59,409 nt of DNA, taken from NCBI GenBank assembly GCA_009780275.1, contig WRAI01000012.1:1-59409 (forward strand), in the 5' to 3' direction. Made by a program: the position numbers and the translations under genes. Below, one piece after another: positions 50,237 through 51,316 of the stretch (position 1 is its first letter; each line of letters opens with the position of its first letter). The DNA is from Oscillospiraceae bacterium. GTDB lineage: Bacteria; Bacillota; Clostridia; Oscillospirales; UBA929. The notes under the pieces were generated by a model. That model did no database searches. It was not told the DNA's origin and saw only the letters and a list, made by a program, of their open reading frames with translations.

Positions 50237-50821
50237 ATGAGGGCAAAAGCATTGCGGTTGTTGGATGATACGACCTTGTGCGGCCAAGCGCAAGCAGGAG
50301 ACCGACAAGCCGAAGAATTGCTGATTTTGCGATATACACGGCACGTGCGACGTTGTGCCCATCCGTTATTTTTAATGGGCGGAGACAATGAAGACCTCAA
50401 CCAAGAAGGGTTGTTGGGACTTTTGTCAGCCATTCGTGATTACCGGGCTGACGGCACGGCGGCATTTGCTACCTACGCTGAAACCTGCATTCGTAATCGT
50501 TTGGCATCGGCTATTTCCAAAGCCAATCGGCTGAAACATACACCATTGAACTCTTCCTTGTCGATGGACGTGCCGCAGTTGGCAGCTGTGCTACATGACT
50601 TTAATGTGATTGATCCAGAGAAGTGGGTGATTGAGCGCGAAGAGGGACGTGAGTTCGCGCAGTTGCTGGCTGGAATGCTGTCAAGCATTGAATCGAGAGT
50701 GTTGCAATTGTATTGCGATGGGTATTCCTACCGTGAGATTGCTGCGCAGATGAATGTGAAAAGCAAGACGGTGGATAACGCCATCCAGCGCATCAAGAAA
50801 AAATTAAGAAGTGTTTTGTAA
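50237..50821 (+). CDS. sigH: SigH-like RNA polymerase sigma factor
   Basis: Encodes 194 residues. Region 2 has NEDLNQEGLLGLLSAIRDYR and FATYAETCIRNRLASAISKA; LKHTPLNSSLSMD and the C-terminal VKSKTVDNAIQRIKKKL match the stationary-phase and sporulation factor SigH (Spo0H). SigH starts the sporulation cascade in Bacillus and Clostridia. The ATG at 50237 follows AGAGGAG; a TTG at 50231 is inside the spacer. It has a consensus promoter and a weak terminator. A second SigH-like paralogue elsewhere cannot be excluded. Confidence 0.75.
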   Translation: MRAKALRLLDDTTLCGQAQAGDRQAEELLILRYTRHVRRCAHPLFLMGGDNEDLNQEGLLGLLSAIRDYRADGTAAFATYAETCIRNRLASAISKANRLKHTPLNSSLSMDVPQLAAVLHDFNVIDPEKWVIEREEGREFAQLLAGMLSSIESRVLQLYCDGYSYREIAAQMNVKSKTVDNAIQRIKKKLRSVL

Positions 50822-50860: not shown

Positions 50861-50880
50861 GCCTCGCCAGAGGCATTATT
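50861..50880 (+). terminator. Weak terminator after the SigH-like gene
   Basis: GCCTC/GAGGC with a GCCA loop (50861-50874), then ATTATT. The tail is not a pure T-run, so read-through into the tRNA-like leader is likely. Confidence 0.4.
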
Positions 50881-50886
50881 ATATGT

Positions 50887-50952
50887 GCCCATGTAGCTTA
50901 AATCACCAGAGCGCGCAACAACGAGGTGTCGGTGCAAATCCGTCCACGGGCA
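50887..50952 (+). ncRNA. Truncated tRNA-like fold upstream of a zinc-ribbon gene
   Basis: The sequence folds into most of a cloverleaf. The acceptor arm is GCCCATG (50887-50893) with CACGGGC (50945-50951), one A-C mismatch. TA at 50894-50895 matches U8-A9. The D-arm is GCTT/GAGC (50896-50899 with 50909-50912) with a 9-base loop. The T-arm is GTCGG/CCGTC (50928-50932 with 50940-50944, one mismatch) around a loop TGCAAAT; the normal loop is TTCAAAT. A73 follows. Only 15 bases lie between D- and T-arms instead of about 22, so a normal anticodon arm is absent. No Sec or suppressor type explains it. It may be a tRNA relic or a tRNA-mimic leader of the next gene, which starts 31 bases later. Confidence 0.4.
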
Positions 50953-50982
50953 AAGAAAATCACCAAAAGTGAGGGAAAACCA

Positions 50983-51264
50983 ATGTACGAAGACAAAACC
51001 CTGAAGTGCAAGGATTGCGATGAAGATTTTATCTTTACCGCAGGAGAGCAAGAGTTCTACGCAGAGCGTGGCTTCCAGAATGAGCCGCAACGTTGTAAGA
51101 ACTGCCGCGACGCTCGTAAAAACGCGCCGCGCGTTCGTGAATTCTTCTCGGCAACTTGCGCCGCTTGCGGCGGTGAGGCAAAAGTGCCTTTCGAGCCCAA
51201 GACCGATCGTCCCGTTTATTGCAGCGACTGCTTCTCGCGTACACGCGAAGAAGGCAGCTACTAA
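50983..51264 (+). CDS. Zinc-ribbon domain protein
   Basis: Encodes 93 residues with two zinc-binding units: a first probable zinc ribbon (CKDCDEDFIF...RCKNCRDARK) and a second CAACGGEAKVPF...YCSDCF. Such small proteins are common and highly expressed in Clostridia but of unknown role; an RNA- or nucleic-acid-binding function is plausible. The ATG at 50983 is behind GAGGG; an open frame from 50926 would run through the tRNA-like element. It ends at a strong terminator. Confidence 0.85.
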   Translation: MYEDKTLKCKDCDEDFIFTAGEQEFYAERGFQNEPQRCKNCRDARKNAPRVREFFSATCAACGGEAKVPFEPKTDRPVYCSDCFSRTREEGSY

Positions 51265-51277
51265 GATTTAACGCGAC

Positions 51278-51316
51278 AATACTCCCCCGAATGCTTTGCG
51301 TTTGGGGGAGTATTTT
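51278..51316 (+). terminator. Intrinsic terminator of the zinc-ribbon gene
   Basis: AATACTCCCCC (51278-51288) pairs with GGGGGAGTATT (51304-51314), followed by TT, 13 bases after the stop. The gap from here to 51401 shows nothing recognisable. Confidence 0.85.

Follow-up and report, generated by a model that had tools for sequence, protein, structure and literature searches.

A conserved tRNA-like RNA with a tiny anticodon arm ahead of a small zinc-binding protein gene in many gut Clostridia

The locus and its tRNA-like element

The sequence analyzed here, called the window, is a stretch of 59,409 nucleotides from an Oscillospiraceae bacterium (contig WRAI01000012.1 of assembly GCA_009780275.1). 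Between a SigH-like sigma factor gene and a gene for a zinc protein it has a tRNA-like element at 50887-50952. An earlier note, made from the letters of the sequence without database searches, had drawn these limits, and they are exactly those of an end-to-end match to the Rfam tRNA family. The features are as follows.

50237..50821, + strand: upstream SigH-like sigma factor gene, ATG start with AGGAG ahead (Pfam Sigma70_r2/r4_2; NCBIfam spore_sigH at 164 bits, below the equivalog cut-off; synteny)
50861..50874, + strand: hairpin GCCTC-GCCA-GAGGC with an AT-rich tail, between sigma gene and element (sequence)
50883..50886, + strand: putative RNase P leader recognition motif, positions -4 to -1, AUGU where the family consensus is AUAU (leader comparison)
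50887..50893, + strand: acceptor stem 5' strand GCCCAUG (RF00005 match, alignment)
50894..50895, + strand: U8 A9, conserved at 100% and 98% (alignment)
50896..50912, + strand: D-arm, stem GCUU/GAGC, loop AAAUCACCA, no GG (RF00005 match, alignment)
50913..50924, + strand: reduced anticodon arm, G26, then C27 G28 - CAACAA - C42 G43, then A44 (mini-stem covariation in relatives; alignment)
50925..50927, + strand: remaining variable loop G45 G46 U48 (alignment)
50928..50944, + strand: T-arm GUCGG - UGCAAAU - CCGUC with a 50:64 mismatch (RF00005 match, alignment)
50945..50952, + strand: acceptor stem 3' strand CACGGGC and A73, with AAA next and no CCA (RF00005 match, alignment, comparison with real tRNAs)
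50953..50982, + strand: linker, with Shine-Dalgarno GAGGG at 50971-50975 (sequence; spacing in relatives)
50983..51264, + strand: zinc protein gene, zf_Tbcl (PF13451) and zf_Tbcl_2 (PF23477), 93 aa, two treble-clef zinc domains (Pfam)
51278..51314, + strand: strong intrinsic terminator 3' of the zinc gene (sequence)

The zinc gene starts 30 nt past the element. A structure search with the zinc protein gives no convincing match. The hairpin at 50861-50874 is 12 nt ahead of the element, and could protect the 3' end of the sigma factor mRNA after a cut or act as a weak terminator.

By cmscan, RF00005 covers the element over all model positions and scores 32.6 bits, where the gathering cut-off is 29; the E-value is 5.8e-5 for 601 bases and 4.6e-5 genome-wide. 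In the 2.09-Mb genome this is the 39th tRNA match by score, coming after 38 full-length tRNAs, and it is the sole short one above the cut-off. ARAGORN calls no tRNA at 50887-50952, and a fast Rfam scan of the whole window at gathering cut-offs misses it. Read from the sequence, the acceptor, D and T pairings, U8 A9, the T-loop UGCAAAU, A73 and the 15 nt that separate the D-stem from the T-stem are all as previously described. The D-stem is paired at 4 of 4 positions, the acceptor at 6 of 7 with an A5.C68 mismatch, and the T-stem at 4 of 5 with a U50.U64 mismatch. What needs correcting is the description of the element as being without an anticodon arm: the arm is reduced, not absent, and in the window it is a mini-stem of 2 bp (C27-G43, G28-C42) with the loop CAACAA, followed by the four-base variable loop AGGU.

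The folding energy of the window element is at the shuffled level (z = -0.08), which is not usable as support, and the mean energy of the cloverleaf lies 6 kcal above the predicted optimum. Because folding energy does not set the element apart from shuffled sequence, the case for it rests on comparative evidence.

Distribution and linkage to the zinc gene

With the leader as query, blastn finds the same element ahead of zinc gene orthologues in further families of the order. We built a covariance model, R1, from 11 relatives with the window left out, and it scores the window element at 72.7 bits. Run on 394 genomes of the order, R1 gives about 100 matches over 38 bits, and a zf_Tbcl gene is directly downstream of the element in 100 of the 100 best-scoring matches retrieved. 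Counted from the listing, those 100 matches and one further locus belong to 16 of the 26 families of the order. Four families in other orders of the class (f47, f55, f60 and f93) also carry the element ahead of a zf_Tbcl gene; the model used at this level, R2, also matches ordinary tRNAs at up to about 53 bits, and class-level matches were accepted only at places with the zinc gene downstream and without an ordinary tRNA call. The weaker matches in a sample of the phylum outside the class are ordinary tRNAs of 75-77 nt.

In the relatives, a sigma factor gene is often directly upstream of the element, and the spacing from element to start codon is constrained, being mostly 22-45 nt with a median near 31. 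Some zinc genes of the same order have no element. The strict tie to one gene favors a gene-specific role over a generic cutting site. A conserved tRNA-like RNA with a tiny anticodon arm is a feature of many gut Clostridia, where it precedes a gene encoding a small zinc-binding protein.

Covariation, and what is kept and lost

Small alignments of 11-14 sequences varied too little to reveal covariation, and in them the window's D-loop was misaligned by MAFFT, a fault removed by using the model built without the window. With 100 sequences, double compensatory changes are found in 12 of the 16 pairs, filling 140 cells against 57 in shuffles, a count that 0 of 500 shuffles reach; sliding the partner strand abolishes the signal. 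The shuffles ignore relatedness, and hence a sample with about one sequence per family was also taken, in which 9 pairs covary with 31 double-change cells against 11.5 in shuffles, again with 0 of 500 reaching it. The mini anticodon stem of about 3 bp is paired at 95.9% and has 54 double-change cells against 10.8 (0/500). It is mostly UUG/CAA, with CAA/UUG, CAG/CUG, CUG/CAG and others in different lineages, and since the aligning model contained no such stem, this count is unbiased by fitting. The earlier note had proposed that a failure of the pairings to be conserved ahead of orthologous zinc genes would count against a functional RNA; the pairings are conserved there, which favors one.

Across the 100 sequences, the tRNA core is kept: U8-A14 (100%), A9 (98%), A21 (98%), G26.A44 (84%), U54-A58 (100%) and U60 (97%). 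What identifies a decoding tRNA is gone, as a stem of about 3 bp with a loop of variable length takes the place of the 7-nt anticodon loop on its 5-bp stem. The contact between the D-loop and T-loop at the elbow is mostly lost, the D-loop GG and T-loop UUC being present together in only 4 of 100 members. The CCA end is lost too, position 74 being A in 90% and position 75 being A in 73% of members; CCA is encoded in all 30 of the real tRNAs of the window genome that were examined. All of the tRNAs examined in three genomes encode CCA.

The lack of a usable anticodon and of CCA, the window mismatches at 5:68 and 50:64 and a probable tRNA-Thr ancestry are what one would cite for a functionless decaying tRNA pseudogene, or for a chance resemblance. 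Against this are the compensatory changes and the invariant core over 100 sequences, and the occurrence of the element at the same spot ahead of the same gene in every retrieved locus. Loss of structural constraint is ruled out by the covariation, and we regard a functionless remnant or an accident as extremely improbable. That the element is a conserved tRNA-derived leader is, from the comparative data, near certain.

Origin from a tRNA gene

A clue to which tRNA was the ancestor comes from family f47, where the gene order is sigH, tRNA-Gly(CCC), an element with a larger arm, and the zinc gene. Other Clostridia have sigH, tRNA-Gly(CCC) and tRNA-Thr(GGU) in that order, with tuf visibly next in two loci. 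The tRNA-Thr(GGU) of the sigH locus starts with GCCCAUGUAGCUCAG, as the element does. It is also the best-matching tRNA for 8 of 9 elements, with a tie in the ninth, in a ranking that is biased by the many tRNA-Thr loci recruited by the element's own model, so the argument for origin rests on gene order. Beyond its position in related lineages and the GCCCAUGUAGCU start, this tRNA has in common with the element the core tertiary positions and an RNase P-type leader. The element differs from it in having no anticodon loop and no CCA, A73 in place of U73, a shortened variable loop, and zf_Tbcl downstream instead of tuf. The best reading is that the element probably derives from the tRNA-Thr(GGU) gene of the sigH locus. 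The proposal of a tRNA relic is thus borne out as to origin, by this position and closest resemblance, and fails as to decay, since the covariation and the invariant tertiary positions indicate selection.

The 5' leader, RNase P and RNase Z

Conservation extends to the 4 nt ahead of the fold. Positions -4 to -1 of the elements are A (85%), U (83%), A (83%) and U (93%), with information of at most 0.35 bits at -5 and mostly under 0.2 bits beyond -8. Real tRNAs of the same organisms, taken from three genomes and others, have the same AUAU consensus in a weaker form (60/61/50/69%). The full AUAU is present in 57 of 100 elements versus 30 of 211 real tRNAs (p = 2e-14) and versus a background of 0.9% of nearby positions. 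As to whether loss of the elbow goes with a stronger leader, the mean leader match is 3.0 in the elbow-keeping members, of which there are only four, and 3.46 in the others. Bacterial RNase P reads N-1 to N-4, where the B. subtilis enzyme prefers A(-2) and U(-1); weakness of the tRNA body can be offset by a strong leader (PMC4919922). A weak body joined to a near-perfect leader is what would be expected of a tRNA-like site that is still selected for cutting by RNase P. RNase P RNA is present in the window genome, and the element has both the host-type 5' leader motif and the acceptor/T-stem body of a substrate. Cleavage by RNase P at the element is therefore likely, as judged from sequence features.

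Two other sources of the motif were considered and rejected. As to a promoter, there is no promoter-like site in the window and no -35 conservation. As to a mini-ORF AUG-CCC-NNN-UAG at the start of the element, AUAU followed by G is common to real tRNAs and no Shine-Dalgarno is ahead of it. At ten loci the sigma factor stop codon is 2-10 nt ahead of the element, which leaves no room for a promoter and makes the element there intercistronic.

A search for RNase Z with TIGR02651 does not find it in the window genome, a 97% complete assembly, with the control positive in 13 of 14, and of 117 genomes of the order only 7 have a strong match. An RNase Z substrate, or an excised RNA resembling mascRNA, is thus not supported. 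The earlier note had suggested a processing signal for RNase P or RNase Z; for RNase P this is supported by the enriched leader motif that real tRNAs also have, and for RNase Z it is not.

Some observations do run against the RNase P reading. Most members have lost the G18G19/U55C56 elbow contact used by bacterial RNase P, and an RCCA end is lacking. Linkage to a single gene family is not required by a mere processing site, and the AUAU leader could be partly inherited from the tRNA ancestor.

How the leader may act

The explanation we lean toward, with a little more than even confidence in it as a whole, is that a reused tRNA gene serves as a cis-acting leader of zf_Tbcl, is cut by RNase P before G1, and is kept as the 5' end of the mRNA. 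The gene would most likely be the tRNA-Thr(GGU) of the sigH locus. The leader transcript would take a tRNA-like cloverleaf fold in which the anticodon arm is vestigial, and RNase P would recognize the acceptor/T-stem body together with the near-optimal AUAU leader, its cut before G1 parting the sigma factor message from the zinc gene message. With a 3' side that has no CCA and a genome apparently without RNase Z, the element would not be excised, and would remain as a folded tRNA-like 5' end of the zinc gene mRNA about 30 nt ahead of the start codon. There the fold may set mRNA stability, ribosome recruitment or both, by protecting the 5' end or by directly helping translation.

The constrained distance between element and start codon is also what one would look for in a translation-control leader of the yjdF kind, in which the tRNA-like fold, perhaps with a ligand to stabilize it, would recruit the ribosome or make contact with it and increase synthesis of the zinc protein, with RNase P irrelevant or secondary. 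The yjdF aptamer is a tRNA-Lys-like fold, and tRNA-like leaders gave 2-6-fold more translation in vitro (PMC9142559). However, this leaves the AUAU motif outside the fold unexplained, the GG D-loop and elbow that yjdF needs are mostly lost in the element, pairing of the Shine-Dalgarno with the element is weak (12% mean), and there is no Rfam yjdF match. We consider such a leader unlikely, while giving it serious weight.

The strict tie to one gene family over about 20 bacterial families, and a position just ahead of the ribosome-binding site, would also suit an autogenous operator, a role that the earlier note had put forward too, in which initiation would be blocked by the zinc protein, or by some other protein that binds tRNA, sitting on the tRNA mimic in the zinc gene mRNA. 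Further zf_Tbcl genes lie behind structured RNAs, which also fits. RNA binding by zf_Tbcl is unsupported, though, there being no paper found on the family and no structural match; moreover, many zf_Tbcl genes do not have the element, and an operator does not explain the AUAU leader. It strikes us as rather improbable.

Other leaders of zf_Tbcl genes

The zinc genes of core Oscillospiraceae (five named loci and others) have no tRNA-like element within 125 nt upstream. They have another recurrent leader, the hairpin GGCGAUAUCAGC-NNNN-GCUGA-N-CGC and then AAUAUA, which has no Rfam match in the loci scanned. Some of these leaders contain a shortened acceptor-like hairpin (GCCC..GGGCA). In four loci of other Clostridia, the zf_Tbcl gene is directly behind the raiA (ModT) noncoding RNA, RF03072; a raiA search of 117 genomes of the window's order gives no match, though its control gave none either. 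Short zf_Tbcl paralogues of 54-73 aa, seen in six loci, have a common leader in which UCUUUAAUUUAUUUGGAGU appears complementary to a stretch at the AAGGAGG site, a pattern that makes a Shine-Dalgarno switch possible.

Relation to known systems

The nearest precedent is the yjdF riboswitch (RF01764), a class that binds azaaromatic ligands. Like the element, it folds as a tRNA-like cloverleaf that probably descends from a tRNA, and it lies in the leader of Gram-positive mRNAs shortly upstream of the ribosome-binding site. In yjdF an extended J1/2 rich in purines forms the ligand pocket, the D-loop GG and the elbow are conserved, and the Shine-Dalgarno is sequestered by the T-loop (PMC9142559), whereas the element has mostly lost the elbow, has no J1/2 pocket, precedes another gene family and has the conserved AUAU leader. 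A permissive cmscan of the region gives no match to RF01764 up to E = 10.

The eukaryotic mascRNA of MALAT1 is also a tRNA-like fold within a non-tRNA transcript recognized by RNase P. There, cuts by RNase P and RNase Z on the two sides give the upstream RNA its 3' end (PMC4919922), whereas here the cap would be on the downstream mRNA, and no RNase Z is found in the window genome. The pseudo-tRNA tRNA-Other of Bacillus cereus is likewise a non-decoding tRNA relative reused in a larger RNA, but it is single-locus, iron-responsive and without a tie to a zinc protein gene (PMC3399842).

No Rfam family besides tRNA matches the element, and we find no description of it or of the zf_Tbcl family in the open-access papers searched. 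Two large surveys of bacterial noncoding RNA mention no tRNA-like motif; a 2017 survey of 224 candidate RNAs is outside this comparison. No described family matches, and relative to yjdF what appears new is the parent tRNA, the gene, the reduced arm and the RNase P leader.

What the element means

In its broadest form, the proposal is of a bacterial mRNA class with a reused tRNA as its 5' end: a tRNA-Thr gene that gave up anticodon arm, elbow and CCA while its RNase P leader was retained and strengthened, and that in a wide range of Clostridia would now be a processed, tRNA-like 5' cap controlling one conserved zinc protein. We put this a little short of an even chance. It would be a case, visible in sequence, in which a tRNA gene has become a control element of an mRNA, with the apparent intermediates standing in living lineages, namely the tRNA-Thr by sigH, the larger-arm element by tRNA-Gly, and the element with an arm of 2-3 bp. 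It would indicate what survives when decoding is given up, which is the core and the RNase P leader, and what goes, which is the anticodon, the elbow and CCA. It would also allow one to test whether RNase P processes mRNA at a fixed and conserved site, and may open a first way into the regulation of zf_Tbcl, a family of highly conserved zinc proteins.
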